NCBI GenBank assembly: GCA_018824405.1
Contig: JAHJGO010000006.1
Coordinates: forward strand, 124,001 to 188,000
DNA: 64,000 bases
Source: Gammaproteobacteria bacterium
GTDB taxonomy: Bacteria; Pseudomonadota; Gammaproteobacteria; Burkholderiales; Sulfuricellaceae
Direction of reading: 5' to 3'
Numbering within the stretch: position 1 is the first letter of the stretch; every line of letters starts with the position of its first letter. Below the pieces are notes generated by a model that was not told the DNA's origin, did no database searches, and was given only the letters and a program-made list of their open reading frames with translations. Of this stretch, positions 9,513 to 35,427 are shown in pieces. Made by a program: the position numbers and the translations under genes.

Positions 9513-11771
9513 TCAGACAGCCTTTTCCAGCTCGTTCTCGAAACTGAGGCGTACGGCATCGCCATCCATATCCACGGTGACGTGGCCGCCGTTGGCCAGG
9601 CGACCAAACAGCAATTCATCCGCCAGCGCACGCCGGATGGTGTCCTGGATCAACCTGGCCATGGGGCGTGCACCCATGAGGGGATCGAAGCCGTGTTTGG
9701 CAAGATAGTCTTTCAGCGCATCGGTAAAAGCGGCCTCCACTTTCTTTTCGTGCAGTTGCTCTTCGAGCTGAATCAGGAACTTGTCGACCACGCGCAAAAT
9801 AACTTCCTGATCCAGCGACTGGAATGAAATGGTGGCGTCCAGACGATTGCGGAACTCGGGCGTAAACAGGCGCTTGATCTCCGCCATCTCGTCCCCTGCC
9901 GTCTTGCTTTGCGAGAACCCGATGCTGCCCTTGCCGAGTTGCTCAGCACCGGCATTGGTCGTCATGATAATGATGACATTACGGAAATCTGCCTTGCGTC
10001 CATTATTGTCGGTCAGAGTGCCGTGATCCATGACCTGCAACAGGATATTGAAAATATCCGGGTGCGCTTTCTCAATCTCGTCCAGCAACAATACGCAATA
10101 GGGGTGCTTGGTGATCTGCTCGGTCATCAGCCCGCCCTGTTCGAAACCGACATAACCCGGCGGCGCGCCGATCAGGCGTGACACGGCGTGCCGCTCCATG
10201 TATTCGGACATATCGAAGCGAATCAGCTCGATTCCCAGAATATAGGCCAGTTGACGTGCGACTTCTGTCTTGCCGACACCGGTTGGACCGGAAAACAGGA
10301 AGGAACCAATCGGCTTCTGCGGGCTGCCCAAACCGCTGCGCGCCATCTTGATTGCCGACGAAAGCGCCTCGATGGCCTTGCCCTGGCCGAACACCACGGC
10401 CTTTAGGTCGCGCTCCAAGGTTTTCAGCGCCGAGCGGTCATCGCTGGAAACATTCTTGGGCGGAATACGCGCAATCTTGGCGATGATCTCCTCGATTTCC
10501 TTGATGGAAATGGTTTTTTTCTGCCGGGATTTCGGCAGGATGCGCTGCGCCGCCCCCGCTTCGTCAATCACATCGATCGCCTTGTCCGGCAGATGACGGT
10601 CATTGATATAGCGCGCCGAAAGCTCTGCTGCCAGGGTCAGGGCAGCAGCAGTGTATTTCACGCCGTGATGCGCTTCGAAACGCGACTTGAGGCCACGCAG
10701 AATCTCCACGGTTTCCTGTACTGAAGGTTCCGGTACATCGATTTTCTGGAAGCGTCGCGACAGGGCATGGTCCTTCTCGAAAATGCCGCGATATTCGTTG
10801 TAGGTCGTGGCACCGATACATTTCAATTGCCCCGAGCTCAACACCGGCTTGAGCAGATTGGAAGCATCGAGGGTGCCGCCTGAAGCAGCACCTGCACCGA
10901 TCAGGGTATGGATCTCGTCGATGAACAGGATTGCGTGGGCATCCTCGGACAACTGCTTCAATACCGCCTTGAGGCGCTGCTCAAAATCACCACGATACTT
11001 GGTGCCGGCCAAGAGCGCGCCCATATCGAGGGCATACACGGTGCTTTTTGCCAGCACATCCGGCACTTCGTTTTCCACGATGCGCCGCGCCAGGCCCTCG
11101 GCAATCGCCGTCTTGCCCACGCCCGCCTCGCCCACCAGAAGCGGATTATTCTTGCGCCGGCGGCACAGCGTCTGCACCACGCGCTCCAGTTCCAGATCAC
11201 GCCCGATGAGAGGGTCGATCTTGCCCGCCAGCGCCTGTGCGTTAAGATTCTGGGTATAACTATCCAGAGCGGATGCCGGCGGCGCTGCTTCCTGCTCGGC
11301 TTCGTGTTCCTGCTCCTGACGCGGCGCGGCACCTTCCTGCACCTTGCTGATGCCATGGGAAATAAAATTCACCACATCCAGCCGACTGATCCCCTGCTGC
11401 TGCAGAAAATACACTGCATGCGAATCTTTTTCGCCGAACATAGCCACCAGCACGTTGGCGCCCGTCACCTCCTTCTTGCCGGAAGACTGCACATGCAGGA
11501 TCGCGCGCTGAATCACGCGCTGGAAACCCAATGTTGGCTGGGTATCGACTTCTTCCGTGCCAGCCACAATTGGCGTGTGTTCGGCCACAAAATCGGTCAG
11601 TTGTCCGCGCAACTCCTCCAGATTCACCGCGCAGGCGCGCAGCACTTGGGCAGCGGTAGGATTGTCCAGCATGGCGAGCAGCAGATGCTCCACGGAAATG
11701 AATTCGTGACGCTTTTGCCGAGCTTCGATGAACGCCATATGCAGGGAAACTTCCAGTTCTTGCGCTATCAT
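9513..11771 (-). CDS. clpA: ATP-dependent Clp protease ATP-binding subunit ClpA
   Basis: ClpA unfolds substrates and feeds them to the ClpP protease. The 752-residue protein has an N-terminal Clp repeat domain (about 1-145) and two AAA+ modules. Walker A motifs are GEAGVGKT and GPTGVGKT, and Walker B motifs are ILFIDEIHT and VLLLDEIEK. The linker between domains is short, as in ClpA rather than ClpB. It starts one base after the clpS stop, and clpS encodes its adaptor. The stop overlaps the region where earP translation should begin. Confidence 0.97.
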   Translation of the reverse strand: MIAQELEVSLHMAFIEARQKRHEFISVEHLLLAMLDNPTAAQVLRACAVNLEELRGQLTDFVAEHTPIVAGTEEVDTQPTLGFQRVIQRAILHVQSSGKKEVTGANVLVAMFGEKDSHAVYFLQQQGISRLDVVNFISHGISKVQEGAAPRQEQEHEAEQEAAPPASALDSYTQNLNAQALAGKIDPLIGRDLELERVVQTLCRRRKNNPLLVGEAGVGKTAIAEGLARRIVENEVPDVLAKSTVYALDMGALLAGTKYRGDFEQRLKAVLKQLSEDAHAILFIDEIHTLIGAGAASGGTLDASNLLKPVLSSGQLKCIGATTYNEYRGIFEKDHALSRRFQKIDVPEPSVQETVEILRGLKSRFEAHHGVKYTAAALTLAAELSARYINDRHLPDKAIDVIDEAGAAQRILPKSRQKKTISIKEIEEIIAKIARIPPKNVSSDDRSALKTLERDLKAVVFGQGKAIEALSSAIKMARSGLGSPQKPIGSFLFSGPTGVGKTEVARQLAYILGIELIRFDMSEYMERHAVSRLIGAPPGYVGFEQGGLMTEQITKHPYCVLLLDEIEKAHPDIFNILLQVMDHGTLTDNNGRKADFRNVIIIMTTNAGAEQLGKGSIGFSQSKTAGDEMAEIKRLFTPEFRNRLDATISFQSLDQEVILRVVDKFLIQLEEQLHEKKVEAAFTDALKDYLAKHGFDPLMGARPMARLIQDTIRRALADELLFGRLANGGHVTVDMDGDAVRLSFENELEKAV

Positions 11772-27683: not shown

Positions 27684-28134
27684 ATGGCGATTACCGATTG
27701 GCCCGAGGACGAGCGCCCCAGGGAACGCCTGCTGAAACAAGGCGCCGCCAGCCTGTCCGATGCGGAACTGCTGGCCATATTCCTGCGCATGGGCATTACT
27801 GGGAAAAGTGCGGTAGATCTGGCGCGCGAATTACTCAATCATTTTGGCAGCCTGACATCACTGTTTTACGCCAGCCAGACTGAGTTCTGCGCCATCCCCG
27901 GACTTGGACCTGCCAAATATGCACAACTGCAGGCCGTGCTGGAAATGTCGCGGCGCGCCCTGCAGGAAGAAATGATCCGGGGCGGCAATGTGCTGAACTC
28001 CCCCCAGGCGGTAAAAAATTATTTACGACTGGCGCTGGGCGGACATGAACATGAAGTATTTTATGCACTTTTCCTCAACGCCCAGAACGGCCTCATTGCC
28101 AGTGAAGAGCTTTTTCGCGGCAGCCTGACCCAGA
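27684..28134 (+). pseudogene. radC: radC, 5' part, split by the mobile element
   Basis: Residues 1-150 of RadC (helix-hairpin-helix [11 protein letters not shown] and the start of the JAB/MPN domain, [22 protein letters not shown]). After the CAG at 28131-28133 the frame runs into element DNA and stops at 28148 after four foreign codons (MSVA). The rest of the gene resumes at 35201. Joining the two restores a 225-residue RadC, the normal length. The severed part lacks the HxH metal motif, so this fragment cannot be an intact JAB protein. Confidence 0.93.
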
Positions 28135-28180
28135 TGAGTGTTGCCTAATTGCGGTGTTAGCTATTATCAAGTTCACATGA
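28121..28180. other. attL, left recombination junction
   Basis: radC sequence up to CCAGA (28130-28134) is joined to element DNA. The element-side arm contains ATGAGTGT (28134-28141), TAATTGCGGT (28146-28155) and GTTCAC (28171-28176). Each has its inverse at the other end of the element (see attR), showing that the uninserted attP was an imperfect palindrome around the core. The stretch from 28181 to 28361 holds no gene that I can support. Confidence 0.85.
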
Positions 28181-28361
28181 ATGTCTCGAACGTGCCAATT
28201 GCATCCGGTCAAGGTTAAAAACACGAGACCATAAAGCTGATGTTCGACGCCTTACCGGGGATGGCGACCAGCAAGCTTAGGGGTAACAACAAGGGTAAGG
28301 AACCGCCGCTTTTTGGTGGTCCCAGCGACCGTAGGGAGCGACCCTGACCCACTTATTATGC

Positions 28362-28682
28362 CTAAGGTAATGAAGGATTATCTTCAAGGATTGCCTCCCT
28401 AATGAATGTTTCTTTTACTTCAGCAAGCAAGTACCCTGCTTCATTTATGAGGCCTGCTTTAACTAGCACATTTATAATAGAGTGCCTTCCTGCGCCTGCA
28501 TAGAAAGGGTCACTCAAGCCAGAAAGCAAGTTTTTACATTTTTTAATTAGTTTATCGAATTCTTCCTTATGATAATCATCATCAAGCTCTCCTATATGGT
28601 GCTCGCACGCTTGGCACCAAACACCAATTTCGTAAACAGCCTTTCCTTGTTTTTCATTTTCTTCCTGAGTCAAATCATCCAT
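28362..28682 (-). CDS. Integron cassette gene, unknown 106-residue protein
   Basis: I do not recognise the family. The 106-residue product is acidic and mostly helical, with a cysteine pair in VWCQACEHH and a hydrophobic second half (HSIINVLVKAGLINEAGYLLAEV). It has no signal peptide or membrane helix. Base composition is clearly more AT-rich than flanking chromosomal genes, a sign of transfer. It starts 18 bases after an attC-like site with a good ribosome-binding site (AAAGAGAAA), the normal layout of an integron cassette. A matching attC after its stop is not evident, so the array may be truncated by attL. Confidence 0.7.
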   Translation of the reverse strand: MDDLTQEENEKQGKAVYEIGVWCQACEHHIGELDDDYHKEEFDKLIKKCKNLLSGLSDPFYAGAGRHSIINVLVKAGLINEAGYLLAEVKETFIREAILEDNPSLP

Positions 28683-28699
28683 AGAAATTTTCTCTTTGA

Positions 28700-28770
28700 G
28701 GCATAACGTAAAAGAAACCGGTGCTGCGCGGCTTTATCGCGCAGCGTCTGGTGGAAGGATGGGTTAAAGC
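28700..28770 (-). other. attC-like site between the two cassettes
   Basis: Read on the minus strand it begins TTTAACCC and ends ACGTTATGCC, so it carries the AAC...GTT ends of an attC. Its arms form a strong stem: CTGCGCG/CGCGCAG around a 7-base loop, with further pairing outside (ACCGG with CTGGT, interrupted). Length is about 70 bases, within the attC range. It sits exactly between two short minus-strand genes, as expected. The outer simple sites are degenerate against the RYYYAAC/GTTRRRY consensus. Confidence 0.65.
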
Positions 28771-28788
28771 ACACTTGCACGTCATTAG

Positions 28789-29379
28789 CTAGTGGCCGAG
28801 AGGTGTACGCAAAACAAGAAACTGGACGAGGATGATAGTCAAATATATTGCAGCCGCAATACCTAGTGCTATAAGGAATTGTTCCGTACGGCGGACGGCA
28901 TTGCTCACCACTGGCTGAGGATACATGTTGATATTTTGTGCAACGCACTCTGCGCTCCGCACCGTTACTAGATTCGGAAGGTCAGAGTTGACAGAGAGGA
29001 CTTCGACTCCAAGAATTTCGTCGGGTGCGAGGCTATCAAATATAAGCACGTAACGCCGATCTGGTTCGGTGTGTTCTTCGTAATGCCGTACCGGCCACAG
29101 GTTTACGCACATGGGCTGCCAGTTAAAAACCAACTCAAGTTTTGTCGCGGATTCTCGGCCTGCGTTGCGAATGATGAAGGAATTTGTTTTTACGGTTTGA
29201 GTGGGTGAAATCTGAGTACCACTGGAATCTATCAGTGGTTGTTGAACCAAAAACGTGAATTGATGAGGAAGCGCCACAAATAGCTTGGCTTTGGCTTTGA
29301 AAATGCTATTGAGTACCCAGGCAATGAAGGGCACGATCAACGCTACGATCTCTTTTCCATATGATTCAATGAATGACAT
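28789..29379 (-). CDS. Integron cassette gene, membrane protein of unknown function
   Basis: The 196-residue product has a hydrophobic N-terminal segment (IVALIVPFIAWVLNSIF) and a C-terminal membrane helix (FLIALGIAAAIYLTIILVQFLV). The central about 120 residues are beta-rich (NSFIIRNAGRESATKLELVFNW), resembling an Ig-like or stress-sensing domain, and would face one side of the membrane. I do not recognise a named family. A ribosome-binding site (AAGGAA) precedes the ATG. It lies between two attC-like sites and reads in the same direction as the 106-residue gene, so it is the first cassette of the array. Confidence 0.72.
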   Translation of the reverse strand: MSFIESYGKEIVALIVPFIAWVLNSIFKAKAKLFVALPHQFTFLVQQPLIDSSGTQISPTQTVKTNSFIIRNAGRESATKLELVFNWQPMCVNLWPVRHYEEHTEPDRRYVLIFDSLAPDEILGVEVLSVNSDLPNLVTVRSAECVAQNINMYPQPVVSNAVRRTEQFLIALGIAAAIYLTIILVQFLVLRTPLGH

Positions 29380-29408
29380 ACAAGTTCCTTGGCTAAATCG
29401 GCTTCATG

Positions 29409-29480
29409 CGCTCTAACGTTTGATGTGAGGGGCCACCGGAGCAGCAAAGCTGGGGCTGGCGGACCCTCTCGACCGAGTTG
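29409..29480 (-). other. attC-like site beside the broken integrase
   Basis: On the minus strand it runs from CCCTAACAACTC to TCAAACGTTAGAGC. The ends CTAAC/GTTAG pair, and GAGAGGG pairs with CCCCTC. The inner part folds as an imperfect hairpin around AGCTTTGCT. TCAAACGTTAG is a familiar attC 3' end. It touches the N-terminal side of the intI relic, where an attI site would normally lie, suggesting attI and the integrase start were lost by deletion or recombination. Confidence 0.68.
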
Positions 29481-29498
29481 TTAGGGAACGACATTTTT

Positions 29499-29741
29499 CC
29501 AAGCTCACGGACAGAGCTGTCTTATGCACATTAGATTAAACGATATATTCTTTTTTGTGGCAAGCGTCACCCCAAGGATATGAGCGCTCCGGAAATAGAA
29601 TCCTTTCTTTCTGCATTGGCTACCGACCGCAATGTTTCTGCCAGCACCCAAAATCTTGCACTATCCTCTATATTGTTCTTGTACAAGGAAGTTTTGCTGA
29701 TTGACCTGCCCTGGCTGGATAATATTGTCTGCGCTAAGAAG
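29499..29741 (+). pseudogene. intI: Integron integrase fragment (intI)
   Basis: One frame encodes about 81 codons matching the N-terminal SAM-like domain of integron tyrosine recombinases: RTELSYAH, stop, IKRYILFCGKRHP, then EIESFLSALATDRNVSAST and LFLYKEVLLIDLPWLD. The TAG at 29532-29534 stands where integron integrases have Trp. Both the first about 20 residues and the whole catalytic domain (RHRY residues) are missing; after AKK at 29741 the frame is unrelated. The orientation, reading away from the cassettes, is that of a true integron. The remaining open frame to 29924 is not considered real. Confidence 0.8.
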
Positions 29742-29869
29742 CTACATGCCATAAAGCTGCAAGTCGTCAGAGGCCGCACCGGGTCGGATGCAGGCACCCA
29801 GACAGTGGTTATCATGCAAATTGAAATTGGCTTCCCAATGATTCGGGGGCGCCATTGCCTAGACAAGTG

Positions 29870-30391
29870 TTACCTAACAAGTCCGGCGCGGAATGTAATC
29901 GGTGCGCGCGGTGGTGTGGGTTGAATGAAGGCATCACCTGGGGCAGCTGGTGCAACTGGTGGCGCGACTGGTTGTGTGTCGGGTTGTGCGACTGAAAGTG
30001 TGTCGGGTTGTGCGACTGGTTGTGTGCAAAATAGCGTGCGTAAAACTGCGACAAGTTCGCCACGCGGTACGTCGCTGGCGCGGTTTACAATTAAGCGTAA
30101 CTCATCGTGACGGGCTATAAGCGCTTCAAAGTGCTGGCCAAGGTTAGCTAGCCTGCGTGTTTCCGGTGGTACTGCTGCCGGTACAGTCGGCGCGGGTGCG
30201 GGTGTGCTGGGTGCCGCAATGCTGGTTATGCTTTCGCCGGCGCGTGCGCGTGCTGCTAAATTTTTGAAGAAATCGGCGGAACCGGACGGCACGGTTGCGC
30301 GAACCTCAACAAACCCGGCGGCTTCGCGCTTTGCCCGAAACCGCGCATTTCTCGCGGCGATGCTCGCCTGTATTTGCTCTAGGGTTTTCAT
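29870..30391 (-). CDS. Element protein with Pro/Ala/Thr-rich tail (paralogue 1)
   Basis: About 173 residues, family unknown. The N-terminal about 60 residues (MKTLEQIQ, IAARNARFRAKREAAGFVEVR, FFKNLAARAR) match the start of the next gene closely and could be a small DNA-binding fold: one strand then helices, as in ribbon-helix-helix proteins. That is inference. The rest is low-complexity, with a VAQPDTxxVAQPDTQPVA repeat mirrored by tandem DNA repeats at about 29985-30030. I start at the ATG at 30391, preceded by AGGAGC; the frame is open 117 bases upstream but without a better site. An ACCTAAC at 29872-29878 at its stop resembles a lone integron core site. Confidence 0.65.
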   Translation of the reverse strand: MKTLEQIQASIAARNARFRAKREAAGFVEVRATVPSGSADFFKNLAARARAGESITSIAAPSTPAPAPTVPAAVPPETRRLANLGQHFEALIARHDELRLIVNRASDVPRGELVAVLRTLFCTQPVAQPDTLSVAQPDTQPVAPPVAPAAPGDAFIQPTPPRAPITFRAGLVR

Positions 30392-30514
30392 ACTTGCTCC
30401 TGTTTTTGTGGGTATGCAACATATAGCGAACGGCAACGCGCGAACGCTCGCAAGCCACAAGCAAACATCGCGCAAACTACTCGCAAGTATTGTGCAAACT
30501 ACTTGCAAGCCGAA

Positions 30515-30940
30515 TTAACCTGCATTTTGTGCTGCTGCGGCTGCGGCTGCGGCGGCGGCTGCTTCGGCTTCGGCTTTTACGGCTCTTTCTGCTCCCGCCC
30601 GCACTGTTGACATCCACGCCGGTTCACCCGGCACTGCTGTCATCCAGGCCGGCTTGCCACTGGCGGGTGCTGCTGGTGCTGCTGGTGCTGCTGGTGGCAG
30701 TGGCGCCGGTGCTGGCGCTGGCTGCGGTGCTTGCGGTACGTTAAGCATGCGCGCCAGGGTAACGTCCAGTGCTGCTGCGCCGGGCTCCCGCAAGCGTGCA
30801 ACAAGTTCTTTTATGAACGCTGCTGCTTCGAGGGTCGGGGCGGTCACCCTTACGTCCACAAAGCCCTTGCTCGCCTGCTTGGCCCGGCTTCGTGCTTTTC
30901 TCGCCGCTGCTGTTTCCCGCATTTGCTCTGCTGTTTTCAT
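30515..30940 (-). CDS. Element protein with Pro/Ala-rich tail (paralogue 2)
   Basis: About 141 residues. The N-terminus (MKTAEQMRETAAARKARSRAKQ, then GFVDVRVTAP and AAFIKELVARLR) aligns without gaps to paralogue 1 downstream, indicating duplication within the element. The middle is PAPAPAPLPPAAPAAPAAP, and the end is a run of alanines (12 in a row) before QNAG. Such tails suggest a flexible linker rather than a catalytic domain. GGAGC precedes the ATG at 30940. It is transcribed from beyond the structured segment, toward paralogue 1. Function is unknown; a DNA-binding regulator or accessory replication protein is possible. Confidence 0.62.
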   Translation of the reverse strand: MKTAEQMRETAAARKARSRAKQASKGFVDVRVTAPTLEAAAFIKELVARLREPGAAALDVTLARMLNVPQAPQPAPAPAPLPPAAPAAPAAPASGKPAWMTAVPGEPAWMSTVRAGAERAVKAEAEAAAAAAAAAAAQNAG

Positions 30941-31017
30941 AAAAGTTTGCTCCGACAGTTGATATACACGTATAGCAACCACACCCTAACGAAGCCCCGC
31001 GCATTACCCCGCGCATC

Positions 31018-31050
31018 GTGACGCACCGGGACGCACAACATGACGCACCA
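31018..31050 (+). repeat. Short GACGCAC direct repeats
   Basis: GACGCAC occurs at 31020-31026, 31030-31036 and 31042-31048, about one DNA turn apart. It lies about 80 bases upstream of the paralogue 2 start, so it could be an operator or a small iteron set. Confidence 0.4.
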
Positions 31051-31076
31051 CGGGGCGGCGAAGTGTGTTTTTGCCC

Positions 31077-31211
31077 TTAAAGGCTTATTCCGCGGGGTTT
31101 GCGAAGCGAAAACCCGGAATAAGGCCCACGCCCGGCAGGGCGTGTGCGGTCGGAGGCGATAGCCGACGATGCGGGCCGGTTGCGAAGCAAGCCGGCTGCA
31201 AGCGCCTTTAA
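31077..31211. other. Four-hairpin structured segment closed by an outer stem
   Basis: TTAAAGGC (31077-31084) pairs perfectly with GCCTTTAA (31204-31211) and encloses four hairpins. They are CTTATTCCG with CGGAATAAG (31084-31123), CACGCCC with GGGCGTG (31127-31144), GTCGG with CCGAC (31149-31167), and GCCGGTTGC with GCAAGCCGGC (31175-31196). Two of the loops read GCGAAGC, known as an exceptionally stable DNA mini-hairpin. No open frame covers it. It could be a structured RNA of either strand, or a single-strand DNA structure such as a replication start. The rest of the 30941-31361 gap holds the GACGCAC repeats and one C-rich repeat. Confidence 0.7.
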
Positions 31212-31283
31212 AAGCTTTTGAACTTGGCTTTTGACGTTAAAGGAGGTGATGCCAAGCAGGTACGCCTGGCACGCCGGATTTGA

Positions 31284-31320
31284 ATTACACACCCCCCCGA
31301 TTGGGGATTTAAGGGCAAAG
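31284..31320 (+). repeat. C-rich dispersed repeat, copy A
   Basis: ACACACCCCCCCGATTGGGG followed by ATTTAAGGGCAAAG. It is related to copy B at 33157-33189 (same strand) and to inverted copies C (33330-33366) and D (33373-33404). Copies A and B/C/D lie on opposite sides of the helicase gene. Each can form a small C/G stem. Confidence 0.65.
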
Positions 31321-31361
31321 AAAAGGCGGCTCGCTGGCCGCCGTTGGTGCAGGCTGGGATG

Positions 31362-32687
31362 TCAAATAAGTGGTTTTTGTGGGTCGGGTTCTCGAGGGAT
31401 AATTCCCGCAGCCAGATTGCATACATACACCCGCGCAGCCCCGATGTGAGCACGGCCAATAGTGACGTCCGGATGCTCAGTTTGCACACGCGGCCAGAAC
31501 CGGGGCATAGCTAGCGGACTCATACCATTGTCGCGGCACCACGCGACGTACTCGGCGTAAACATCAGCTTTGGGCATTTTCATATCAGGCACAACGGCCA
31601 TATCAGCATCTTTGAACCATGCAGCAACTGAGTTGCTTTCCAGCTGGCCAGCTTGCTTCGCTGCCAGCACAGACTCTGGCACTTCTCGGTCGAAATAACC
31701 ACGAGTCAGCAATCCCAGCAGACCCGCAAGCGCCCAATTCAAGATACCATGCAGCTCTTCGGCGATAAGAATGTCAGCAAGGCCAGCGATGCTTTCAGAC
31801 TGCGCGATAGTCGTGTCGAAGGGTATTACATCCCAGCGCCGCCAGAATCCATGGGACTGGTCTGCGATGGCGGGAATGTGGTTAGCCAGCACAATCCATT
31901 TTCCCTGGATACGCACACTTAATGGGTCGCGATATTTCCGGTCAATCTGAATGGTTTCACCAGCAATAAGTGTTTTAATCGCTTGCTCATCTATCCCCCG
32001 CTTTGGCGCTTCATCACAATATATGAGGGAAGCACCGACCATGCCGGACAGTGCAAAGCCCTCCAGGCGGTCAAGTTGAACCGCTGCAACTTTACTGTGC
32101 AAAGCTTGAACGACGTTAGCCAAAACACCCTTTCCATTCATCCCGCCGCCGATCCACAACTGCGCGAGCTGGTGTCGGGCGTCATGAATGAGAGAATAAC
32201 CGACGTACTCTTGTACGCGTTTCTGGACGGCTTTGTCCGGCAGGATTTTGTCCAGGAATTTCTGAAACTGTACGGGGTCCGACGCATCTGGCATGTAGTC
32301 ACATTTAATGCAGTGCTGCAGGCCTTCTGCGGGGTCGTGGGGGGTCAGTACGGGGTAGCCCGTACCGTCTAAGCGCAGGTATCCATTCTGCAGTGGTAAA
32401 ATTACGCGGTCGCGACGGGGCTCAACTAGTTTGTTCGCCCACAGCACTGCAGCACGATGTGCTGATTTAGCGTTTGCAGGCGTCGCATGGTTTGAATCAT
32501 GTCGCACAAGCCACTTTAGCGCGTTAGCTTCGCCCTGGTTATCCTCAACCGGTGCCCAGTGCGTCCCAGTCCATGACCACAAGACACTCAAGTCGCTGGC
32601 GTGTTTTGCGGGGTCAGCAAACCCGGCAGCGTATTCCATCGGACGAAACGGCTTGGCTTTTTCTTTTACGGTCGCGATTTCGCTCAT
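31362..32687 (-). CDS. D5/P4-type replicative helicase (phage/plasmid primase family)
   Basis: The 441-residue protein matches the superfamily-3 helicases encoded by phage P4-like and plasmid elements. Marks: the D5_N-like region (LQHCIKCDYMPDASDP, then FQKFLDKILPD and QEYVGYSLIHD), Walker A in WIGGGMNGKGVLANVV, Walker B-like SLIYCDEAPKRG, and the sensor segment KWIVLANHIPAI with an arginine in WRRWDVIPFD. The primase or zinc-finger half of longer relatives is absent. It should unwind the element origin after excision. Its ATG overlaps the stop of the upstream ribbon-helix-helix gene (ATGA), so the two are translated together. Confidence 0.85.
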   Translation of the reverse strand: MSEIATVKEKAKPFRPMEYAAGFADPAKHASDLSVLWSWTGTHWAPVEDNQGEANALKWLVRHDSNHATPANAKSAHRAAVLWANKLVEPRRDRVILPLQNGYLRLDGTGYPVLTPHDPAEGLQHCIKCDYMPDASDPVQFQKFLDKILPDKAVQKRVQEYVGYSLIHDARHQLAQLWIGGGMNGKGVLANVVQALHSKVAAVQLDRLEGFALSGMVGASLIYCDEAPKRGIDEQAIKTLIAGETIQIDRKYRDPLSVRIQGKWIVLANHIPAIADQSHGFWRRWDVIPFDTTIAQSESIAGLADILIAEELHGILNWALAGLLGLLTRGYFDREVPESVLAAKQAGQLESNSVAAWFKDADMAVVPDMKMPKADVYAEYVAWCRDNGMSPLAMPRFWPRVQTEHPDVTIGRAHIGAARVYVCNLAAGIIPREPDPQKPLI

Positions 32688-32848
32688 TTTGCACCTCGCG
32701 CAGCGGTGATAACATAATCACGGATGGCGGCGCGAAGCACCAAGCTAGCGGTCTGTGCGTTTTGCGCTAGCGCTAGGTTAAACTGGGCTAGCAGTTCCGG
32801 GGGGAGCCGCAGTATGAGAGTAGCGGTCATGGTTTTTTTGCGAGGCAT
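32684..32848 (-). CDS. Small ribbon-helix-helix (CopG/Arc-like) protein
   Basis: A 54-residue protein, MPRKKTMTATLILRLPPELL and onward, with the ribbon-helix-helix pattern: basic start, a beta strand (TATLILRLP), then two helices (ELLAQFNLALAQN and TASLVLRAAIRDYVI). Such proteins bind operators as dimers and control plasmid copy number. The stop overlaps the helicase start by four bases (ATGA). It lies next to the repeat-rich region at 32849-33492, a likely place for its operator. It is too short for most automatic gene calls. Confidence 0.75.
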   Translation of the reverse strand: MPRKKTMTATLILRLPPELLAQFNLALAQNAQTASLVLRAAIRDYVITAARGAK

Positions 32849-33492
32849 CGTCAGCACCTTTTTACGTTTCGATACTACGTATAGCTAGTGCTATGCGACG
32901 AAGGCCGGTTTATTTGCATAAAACAAGCAAAAAAAGTTACCGGTTGCTGGAGACGATGTGCAAAATATGTACTTGGGCTGGGCAAATGGGCTGAGCTCCA
33001 GGATTAGCTGGCCCGCGGGAAGCCAGCAACGACGGGGCCCGGCCTGGGTGGCCTGGGTGGCCTGGGCTATTTCGTAAAACAATTTTTTCTGTTGTTGATA
33101 CGGCTTCTGTTTTATTTACTACTATCGCGCGCGAAAGTAGGTATATATCTATACAAGTGCACACCCCCCCGAATGGGTGTTTAAAGACATTTCACTACTA
33201 AAACCGTGGAGTCAAAAAAAGAGTTTTGGTTTTTACCCAGGACACCCAGGCCGCCCAGTCACTGCAAGCACTGGCGCGGCTCTCCGATTGCCTAGTCTGT
33301 CACTTGCCCAGCCCACTTGCCCAGCCCACTTGCCGTTAAATCCCCCTCTGGGGGGTGGTGCAATTGTTTTACTCTCCCCTTACCGGGGGGGGTGTGCAAT
33401 TTTATTTTTCCAAGGGGGGGTGGTGTCTCGACAAAGTGCGGGCGTGCGTAATCCGCTAGATTTAGGGTTTGTGATTTCGTAACGTCATTACG
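32849..33492. other. Repeat-rich non-coding region, candidate origin and control region
   Basis: No convincing gene lies here. It holds GGCCTGGGTG tandem repeats (33049-33068); CCCACTTGCCCAG repeats (about 33297-33335); CCCAGG-type inverses of the first set (33237-33262); an AT-rich stretch with TATATATCTATAC (33142-33155); and C-rich repeats B (33157-33189), C (33330-33366, inverted), D (33373-33404, inverted) and a partial E (33407-33428). It separates the helicase operon from the recombinase, both minus strand. Iteron-like repeats beside a D5 helicase are typical of plasmid and satellite origins; origin function is inference. Confidence 0.6.
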
Positions 33493-35148
33493 TTACGCGT
33501 TCGATTTATGCAGGGGTGTGCGTAGCGGTGGCATGTCCGCCAGGCCGGGTTGTAGCAGTTTATTACTGCCATCCGTCTGTGTTTGCACAAATCGTGATTT
33601 ATCCCCGGTGCGCTTTGGAGGGAGATGTACGGTCACTGCTTCGTTGTGGCCTCTGAACTGAATCACCGCCGCTTCGTAGGGAAATAACCAAATGGCTTGT
33701 ACTGCTTGCCGCAGTCGCGCGTTAAAATCCGCCCTAACTCGCGCAGCGTCTTCGCCCCGCTCATACAGTACGGTTAGCACTTTATCCGCCATAGCGTCGT
33801 TCAGGGGATTAAACGCTGTTGCCGCCGCTCGATGCTCTAGCGCATCCGCTTCAGCCGCTACAGCTTTGCGCTGTTCCGCCAGCTCCTGACTTTTTTTGAT
33901 AAACGCGGGCATTGCACCGCCAGTAGCCGTGACAATATCGGCTATTCGTTCCGCCGCCGCATCAAGCTCTGCCAGTCGGTTTCTCGCCACTAAAAGCGCG
34001 CTACCCGCCGCCGCTGTTTCGTCGGACATGTGGGATGCTGCAAGCATACATACAGTGGACACAATCGGGGCATCAGCGCTACGCACCGCACAACTTGGGC
34101 AGCGGGTTTTACCAGGCAAAGCATCCCCGCAAATCAGCGAACCCGATACACGCTCACCCCTTGCCTCAACTTTGCGCTGCATTGACGCCCCGCAATGCCC
34201 ACAAAACAAGCGCCCGGCAAAAATGTTGTAATACCAGCGGTCACGCCGCCCTGGGGACGTTCTACGCTCTGTAACCGCAGCTCTGGCTCTGTGCCATAGT
34301 TCATCATCGACAATGCGCGGGTAGTAGTCCGGGATTGCGTCACCTACCAGCTCACCCTCCCAATGATTTGAGTGCTGCTCGTGCCCTCGTCGTCGGTGTG
34401 TATGCTCGCCTAATACCTGCCGACTCCTAAGCAGCTGTCCGGGTAGGCGTGAGTGCCAGCCTTTTGACTGCTCCGCAATACGGGTAGGTACGGGCCATTT
34501 CTCTGAGTTCGCTATACGTGCAATTTGTTTTGAACCATGTCCGCTCGCAGCAAGCTCAAATACTTTAACAACAACTGCGGCCAGCTCCGGGATAACAATC
34601 CAAGCTGATGTTTTGTTTTCACGCCTCAACCATCCGGGTGCACTACCAAAGATTTTAGAACTGCCTATTTTCCTGTGTTCTTCGAACACTTCACGGACGC
34701 GCTTAGCTTTTGCTTCACTTTCTTCATTAGCGCGTGAAAACGTTAAAACCGATGAAATAAATTGCCGACTGTCTTTAATTGTTTCTTGTGACCAGCGCTG
34801 TCTATCTTGAAGCGTAACTATTTCAACACCAGCTGCGAGCAAATCCAGCATCAGCGGTATCGCGAAGGTTAAGCCGCCCCGCGAAAGCCTGTCGAGGTTT
34901 TCGATTAACAATACGGTGCCCGCGGGTAGCACTCGCTCCCGCGCCATGTGTAGCAACTTGCTTAGCGCGCCGACCCGAGCGTTTCTACCCGTCCACCCGC
35001 TAACACCCGCATCGTGCAAGTGCAGTGAATTGTCCAGTGTTGTGCCATTTTGAACACACCATTTCTCGGCAGCTTCTAGCTGCCGCCGCAGGGAATCACC
35101 GTGCGCTTGTTTGCCCGTTGAAAACCGAGTGTAAGATATTACAAACAT
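33493..35148 (-). CDS. Large serine recombinase (element integrase)
   Basis: The 551-residue protein inserts and excises the element. The resolvase domain starts MFVISYTRFSTGKQ, with catalytic Ser10 in the Y-x-R-x-S motif; ENLDRLSRG carries active-site arginines. A recombinase domain follows (about 160-270), then a zinc ribbon with four cysteines (FCGHCG and RCPSC), then a coiled coil (about 390-450) of the type that controls directionality. I use the ATG at 35148, because the longer open frame crosses attR into antisense radC and cannot have existed in the free element. The gene starts 48 bases from the crossover core. Confidence 0.93.
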   Translation of the reverse strand: MFVISYTRFSTGKQAHGDSLRRQLEAAEKWCVQNGTTLDNSLHLHDAGVSGWTGRNARVGALSKLLHMARERVLPAGTVLLIENLDRLSRGGLTFAIPLMLDLLAAGVEIVTLQDRQRWSQETIKDSRQFISSVLTFSRANEESEAKAKRVREVFEEHRKIGSSKIFGSAPGWLRRENKTSAWIVIPELAAVVVKVFELAASGHGSKQIARIANSEKWPVPTRIAEQSKGWHSRLPGQLLRSRQVLGEHTHRRRGHEQHSNHWEGELVGDAIPDYYPRIVDDELWHRARAAVTERRTSPGRRDRWYYNIFAGRLFCGHCGASMQRKVEARGERVSGSLICGDALPGKTRCPSCAVRSADAPIVSTVCMLAASHMSDETAAAGSALLVARNRLAELDAAAERIADIVTATGGAMPAFIKKSQELAEQRKAVAAEADALEHRAAATAFNPLNDAMADKVLTVLYERGEDAARVRADFNARLRQAVQAIWLFPYEAAVIQFRGHNEAVTVHLPPKRTGDKSRFVQTQTDGSNKLLQPGLADMPPLRTPLHKSNA

Positions 35149-35154
35149 ATTTAA

Positions 35155-35215
35155 TTTAGGGTGAACATGATATACCGCAATTATGGCACACTCATCCAGA
35201 CCAGCGTCTATCCGC
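35155..35215. other. attR, right recombination junction
   Basis: Element DNA ends with GTGAAC (35161-35166), ACCGCAATTA (35174-35183) and ACACTCAT (35188-35195), then the shared CCAGA (35196-35200), then radC. The three blocks are inverses of GTTCAC, TAATTGCGGT and ATGAGTGT at attL. A reconstructed attP is therefore a roughly 80-base imperfect palindrome; spacing of the outermost blocks differs (7 against 15 bases). Confidence 0.85.
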
Positions 35216-35427
35216 GTGAAATTCTGAAGCGGGCGTTGCACCACAATGCGGCGGGAGTTATTTTCGCCCATAACCATCCATCAGGCGTGGCCGAGCCAAG
35301 CAACGCCGACCAGATTCTCACCCAGACCTTGAAAAACGCCTTATCGATCATAGATACACGCGTTATGGATCATTTTATTATCGGTAGCGGCACGGTGTTG
35401 TCGTTCGCTGAACGAGGTTTATTGTGA
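35201..35427 (+). pseudogene. radC: radC, 3' part, downstream of the mobile element
   Basis: Encodes the last 75 residues of RadC, from [19 protein letters not shown] through the JAMM metal motif [14 protein letters not shown] to the normal C-terminus FAERGLL. The frame stays open leftwards into the element, where GTG at 35161 or ATG at 35167 could serve as a start, giving an 86-88-residue hybrid. Whether it is translated is unknown. Its stop overlaps the GTG of the quinone reductase gene (GTGA), so in the unsplit state the two genes were coupled. Confidence 0.92.

Follow-up and report, generated by a model that had tools for sequence, protein, structure and literature searches.

Boundaries of the insertion in radC

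What kind of DNA splits the radC gene of a bacterium of the Sulfuricellaceae (Burkholderiales; GenBank assembly GCA_018824405.1), how did it enter the gene, and can it leave again? The window analyzed here is a 64,000-nucleotide stretch of contig JAHJGO010000006.1 (positions 124,001 to 188,000), in which the two parts of radC flank a 7.07-kb insert. A first-pass annotation had described this insert as an integrative element bounded by CCAGA that excises as a circle and restores a 225-residue RadC. The features that define the ends and the integration module are as follows (window coordinates).

27684..28134, forward strand: 5' part of radC, including the left core; UPF0758_N and part of the RadC domain; rejoins in frame
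28130..28134, forward strand: left core CCAGA (attL), direct sequence match
28132..28156, forward strand: left attP half-site
33493..35148, reverse strand: large serine recombinase (LSR), 551 residues
35173..35197, forward strand: right attP half-site, pairing with the left half-site
35196..35200, forward strand: right core CCAGA (attR), direct sequence match
35196..35427, forward strand: 3' part of radC, RadC domain positions 42 to 121; rejoins in frame

In the window sequence the two copies of CCAGA lie 7,066 bp apart, and removal of one copy together with the 7,061 intervening bases restores a continuous radC frame of 225 codons, which confirms the boundaries and the reading frame of the first-pass annotation. 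The insertion point is nucleotide 447 of the rejoined gene, at residues 149 and 150, and the 5' reading frame continues into the element as far as 28148. The core falls at residue 149 and the HNHPSG motif of RadC at residue 174. Because the insertion splits the gene ahead of this motif, RadC presumably lacks activity as long as the element remains in place.

A RadC match was found in 36 of the 41 genomes searched, the host included, and at all 20 relatives' loci inspected from this search radC runs unbroken across the site. The pentanucleotide at the site is CCAGA in 16 of these relatives, CCAAA in 3, and GCAAA in 1, and the central CA is conserved in all 20. The closest relative, with a RadC 91% identical to that of the host, carries the same CCAGA. 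Of 438 relatives in a second collection, the best 80 all match from residue 1 to at least residue 221 of 225. No insertion in radC was seen in any other genome among the 20 loci and these best 80 relatives. The empty radC at exactly this CCAGA, on which the first-pass reading depends, thus exists in related genomes.

A large serine recombinase and a quasi-symmetric attP

The 551-residue protein encoded at the right end contains Resolvase, Recombinase, and Zn_ribbon_recom domains, each over its cut-off, which identifies it as an LSR, and it matches the phage integrase family phrog_95 (E value of 2e-55). Its ATG is at 35148, 47 bases from the right core; the first-pass annotation had correctly placed a recombinase of this kind nearby, although at 48 bases.

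Rejoining the inner flanks yields a sequence that is complementary at 20/25 and 21/30 positions about a center at the CA of CCAG. When the site was shuffled 1,000 times by mononucleotide and scored as the maximum over all centers tested, the largest pairing was 20/30 (mean of 14.3) versus 21/30 observed, and the best of 63,940 centers in the window reached 17/25 versus 20/25 at the junction. The palindrome had been described as three motif pairs arranged about the core. Two of these stand in register: ATGAGTGT and ACACTCAT at 2.5 to 9.5 bases from the center on either side, and TAATTGCGGT and ACCGCAATTA at 14.5 to 23.5 bases. The third, GTTCAC and GTGAAC, does not, as its members lie at 39.5 to 44.5 and 31.5 to 36.5 bases, 8 bases out of register.

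Passages on two well-described systems offer a comparison: the attP of A118 is pseudo-palindromic with half-sites of 25 bp (PMC3783163), and Bxb1 uses an attP of 48 bp and an attB of 38 bp, with the central dinucleotide alone determining polarity (PMC3642061). The symmetry observed here extends about 24 bases from the center, as in these accounts of the A118 and Bxb1 attP sites. The locus therefore has two features expected of LSR elements: an attP of some 50 bp that is quasi-symmetric about a central dinucleotide (20/25 pairs about CA), and a short core common to both ends, CCAGA, within a gene that relatives carry intact. With the domains, the core, the attP pairing, and the empty site in relatives all in agreement, the first-pass proposal of an LSR acting at a short common core within a quasi-symmetric att site is borne out, and the insert is very probably an integrative element that is driven by its LSR and whose attB lies within radC.

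The recombinase itself is divergent. It has 18 matches in 16 of 399 genomes of the order at E values of ≤1e-10, its own included, and the best long match is 36% identical; at E values of ≤1e-50, matches are confined to 2 of 369 genomes of the class, again counting its own. No close relative was confirmed in genome_contigs (14 pattern stretches), a single relative in viral_contigs is 25% identical, and all relatives in plasmids (34 records) and phages (84 records) are under 60% identity. A sequence search of the PDB with the recombinase returned no match. The idea that integration cuts off a recombinase promoter was dropped, as the region holds 3 promoter-like sites versus 5.9 expected. A second LSR is encoded in the same genome (locus L046, approximately 10080 to 11718, on G000:C18); it is 35% identical to the present one and lies just 3' of a gene identified by eye as encoding thioredoxin.

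A helicase and an inverted repeat as a probable replication module

The middle of the element holds a helicase gene and several repeats.

31283..31317, forward strand: C-run hairpin motif, first copy (repeat family D3, pairs I1 and I14)
31362..32687, reverse strand: C-terminal part of a P4-type primase, D5-like helicase, 441 residues
32974..33328, no strand assigned: large imperfect inverted repeat, centered at 33151, origin-like
33155..33405, no single strand: further C-run hairpin motifs (33155 to 33189 forward; 33330 to 33365 and 33386 to 33405 inverted)

The helicase has DUF5906 and D5_N domains over cut-off and scores 152 bits against TIGR01613 (cut-off of 108.7). It thus corresponds to the P4-type primase/helicase of P4-like satellites, in its C-terminal helicase part only, and its PDB match is the DNA primase 7ola. 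Relatives occur in 28 of 399 genomes of the order at E values of ≤1e-15, its own included, the best other being 57% identical; the best relatives, 57 to 39% identical, are spread over five genomes. In the class, its own was the only one of 369 genomes with a match at E values of ≤1e-60, and viral_contigs contained no close relative.

The inverted repeat lies between the helicase and recombinase genes and pairs at 86 of 180 positions (mean of 45.6, standard deviation of 6.3), the highest value in the window. Among the other helicase loci, L156 (9228 to 13121) encodes the helicase that is 57% identical, with a RepB-type primase gene close by, and is perhaps a related replicon. Its helicase is accompanied by a 31-nt inverted repeat (94%) and two paired C-run motifs; a gapless scan did not single out the region near the helicase in this locus. 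No comparable repeat was found by the helicase in L157 to L160. The helicase and the inverted-repeat region probably form a replication module. The repeat is possibly an origin of replication, a reading that we hold to be weak.

The helicase and the recombinase appear to be paired in the present element only, among the loci compared: none of the seven helicase loci (L156 to L162) has an LSR match, and none of the nine LSR loci (L041 to L049) has a helicase match. In L159 and L160 the gene adjoining the helicase encodes a tyrosine integrase. These two islands resemble the present element in their helicases (43% and 39% identical) and differ from it in having a tyrosine integrase and no LSR match.

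An integron-derived left third

The left third of the element carries five features, listed from left to right.

28362..28682, reverse strand: 106-residue open reading frame (ORF) in a cassette-like position, with no family match (ORF list, profile scans)
28701..28768, reverse strand: attC-like site between the 196- and 106-residue ORFs (pattern drawn by eye)
28789..29379, reverse strand: 196-residue ORF with no family match and with homologues in other genomes (ORF list, profile scans)
29412..29484, reverse strand: attC-like site upstream of the 196-residue ORF (pattern drawn by eye)
29502..29747, forward strand: intI remnant with one in-frame stop, matching TIGR02249 positions 15 to 96 of 315

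The intI remnant scores 83 bits against a 265-bit cut-off, a shortfall to be expected of a piece of the gene; a complete integron integrase gene was not found in the element. All 14 control genomes also yield matches below the cut-off in this profile search. The name is therefore based on the integron integrase being the best NCBIfam match of the remnant ORF and on its 57% identity over 79 residues to the complete IntI of the host (E value of 9e-25). The latter gene (L055, 805 to 1803, on G000:C7; 332 residues, 489 bits) lies near a contig end, and its cassette array was therefore probably cut off by the assembly. We rejected the integron of the host as the source from which the remnant was copied, given this level of identity and a best DNA match of 42 bases at 79%.

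On the opposite strand, the remnant is followed by an attC-like site, the 196-residue ORF, a second attC-like site, and the 106-residue ORF. Both attC-like patterns were drawn up after the sites had been seen. The site at 28701 to 28768 folds better than shuffles (z scores of -2.7 and -2.9), and that at 29412 to 29484 folds no better than shuffles. No attC-like site was recognized beyond the 106-residue ORF. Genome-wide, the attC core pattern has two matches, and the one exact match is the site in the element. A home-made attC scorer is uninformative, as it detected no site at all, not even these two. The 196-residue ORF was also considered as a marker of integron arrays and set aside, as no integron integrase is among the listed ORFs of the two loci considered (L164 and L165). 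Judged from its sequence features, the left third is integron-derived cargo.

The first-pass annotation did not recognize the family of this element. This can now be answered in part: its integration module is of a known kind, its helicase recurs in loci without an LSR, and its left third is integron-derived.

Proposed mechanism and alternative explanations

We are confident that the insert is a 7.07-kb LSR integrative element that entered radC by recombination of its attP with the radC site at CA, would excise as a circle that restores radC, and combines a probable helicase-based replication with integron-derived cargo. The LSR would join the quasi-palindromic attP of the circle to the radC site, with strands exchanged at the CA of the common CCAGA. 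Recombination of attL with attR, presumably aided by a directionality factor, would release the circle and restore radC, and the P4-type helicase with the neighboring inverted repeat would copy the circle. Transfer would depend on outside help, since no relaxase, conjugation, or virion gene was recognized among the ORFs scanned. The relaxase and transfer genes that mark integrative and conjugative elements (ICEs) and integrative and mobilizable elements (IMEs) are thus absent from those ORFs.

Several observations weigh against this account. The attB in radC is without symmetry (6/25 pairs), and no directionality factor was recognized among the ORFs of the element. Excision as a circle is deduced from a single genome assembly in which neither a circle nor a mixed population is in evidence. 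A comparable repeat by the helicase occurs in one of five other helicase loci (L156), and in a gapless scan L157 has equally strong repeats far from its helicase.

The alternative that survives best is that the recombinase placed the element, which is now a fossil: lacking a working directionality factor, it could not leave, and radC would be permanently broken. The broken intI piece inside the element, the unrecognized directionality factor, and the restriction of the insertion to this genome among the relatives compared are in line with such decay. The recombinase and helicase frames, however, are open and full-length, and the decayed intI part is cargo of another origin. The attP symmetry and the radC frame are undamaged as well, which suggests a recent insertion. 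We consider a fossil possible but unlikely.

More doubtful still is the reading of the insert as a temperate-phage satellite or remnant, as opposed to a plasmid-like element; the helicase would then replicate the DNA and a helper phage would package it. Both the recombinase and the helicase match phage protein families, P4-type primases occur in phages and satellites, and 967 phage records match the helicase, all under 60% identity. The same helicase family is found in plasmids too (393 records), however, the viral collections contain no close relative, and none of the scanned proteins belongs to a capsid, packaging, or lysis family. P4-like satellites carry a tyrosine integrase that acts at a tRNA gene, along with genes for hijacking the helper. 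The present element instead has an LSR and sits in radC, and no such family was found among the proteins scanned.

The draft state of the genome (29 contigs) raises the thought of an assembly or binning artifact that joined foreign DNA into radC, which is exceedingly improbable because the window sits inside one contig of 245,535 bases and a misjoin would not produce a core that matches exactly, a radC that rejoins in frame, and a palindrome at the junction.

Targets of related recombinases

We examined the gene adjoining the 5' end of the LSR at the 17 matches other than the present one (25 to 36% identical), and at 8 of these loci the neighbor could be named. Four of the 17 have transformation-related neighbors (comM at three, comEC at one). 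In L047 and L048, comM is split, and both halves were found flanking the element; in L042, only the first 36 residues of comM were found. In L044 (4056 to 6685), from a genome of the same family, a truncated comEC lies directly before the LSR gene. The break corresponds to approximately residue 264 in the ComEC of the host, and the 15 kb covered of this locus does not include the remaining half. The host genome of the present element has a ComEC-family frame of 795 residues, over cut-off. The LSR neighbor in L045 is a DUF455 gene without its N-terminal part, and an apparently whole rimO, named by eye, adjoins the LSR 5' end in L031, L033, and L035, a recurring site in three genomes. Boundaries outside radC, which the first-pass annotation would have counted against its reading, are thus seen among relatives of the recombinase, but in distant LSRs only. 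Differing targets among distant LSRs are usual for the class.

The two comM elements, from other Burkholderiales (L047, 3797 to 10953, ~7 kb; L048, 9404 to 15200, ~6 kb), are like the present one in their size, terminal LSR gene, and split host gene. They are unlike it in LSR sequence (28 to 32% identical), target, core, gene content, and the lower symmetry of their best att candidates (14 to 16 of 25 pairs). By eye, each also has a smaller second resolvase gene.

Relation to published elements

Published precedents exist both for competence genes that carry LSR elements and for mobile elements within radC. Passages of Durrant et al. (2022, PMC10083194) report that LSR targets are enriched in competence genes and that ComM-like magnesium chelatase genes are the target of 12.4% of site-specific integrases. 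The weight of our 4 of 17 loci rests on this published enrichment, since we have no control for the rate expected of random genes. The elements described there share with the present one an LSR, a short common center, and an attB in a conserved gene; radC is absent from the main text, the part of that paper that was searched.

The integrase of the Listeria monocytogenes prophage considered here is an A118-type LSR, and the main recombinases of Tn554-like tnpABC are of the tyrosine class. An ortholog of that prophage integrase belongs to a prophage in radC of Enterococcus faecalis RMC65, according to the relevant passage (PMC4774983). This is a mobile element in radC, as here, but a prophage in a Firmicute, and the likeness is at the level of the target gene. 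Tn6188, a Tn554-like element with tnpABC transposition genes, is described as lying between bp 540 and 541 of radC in Listeria (PMC3788773); it is of similar size and also inside radC, whereas the present element is at nucleotide 447 and uses an LSR. For Mesorhizobium, radC is listed as a site of ICEs and IMEs in passages that do not name their integrase class (PMC8627217). We found no report of an LSR element inside a proteobacterial radC among the matches listed for radC and serine recombinases in the open-licence literature.

The integration module is therefore of a known kind, and the helicase is common to loci without an LSR, two of them with the adjoining tyrosine integrase. The combination of LSR, helicase, and integron relic was not met in the other loci compared. 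The element is an example of an LSR element that has acquired integron-derived DNA. It also defines to the base the attP and attB of a divergent LSR, and this pair, in which attP is unusually symmetric, is a possible integration tool. With it, radC of a sulfur-oxidizing betaproteobacterial lineage joins comM and comEC among LSR-interrupted genes, and the conflict between mobile elements and transformation becomes testable in this lineage.

Interruption of comM by mobile elements has been discussed as a brake on transformation in passages of two papers (PMC4774983, PMC11472951). As a speculation that we regard as improbable, small LSR mini-replicons without transfer genes might persist in Burkholderiales by residing in transformation-related genes (comM, comEC, radC), where they would reduce the host's capacity to remove them through natural transformation and would give the gene back on excision. 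On this view, radC would have a part in the transformation of these bacteria. This proposal is weakened by an account in which RadC rises in competence and yet is not always essential for transformation (PMC4774983).

Small proteins of the element

Three further reading frames, all on the reverse strand, complete the element.

29870..30391, reverse strand: 173-residue protein, paralogue of the 141-residue protein, with no family match
30515..30940, reverse strand: 141-residue protein, weak match to the phage transcription-regulator family phrog_536 (E value of 0.016)
32684..32857, reverse strand: 57-residue possible ribbon-helix-helix protein, weak match under cut-off

A search for defense cargo gave no PADLOC match for 6 proteins, and two matches to RNA families were both under the gathering score. 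The 141- and 173-residue proteins were not found in the 21 other genomes of the family; they are 50% identical to each other over 84 residues, which marks them as paralogues.

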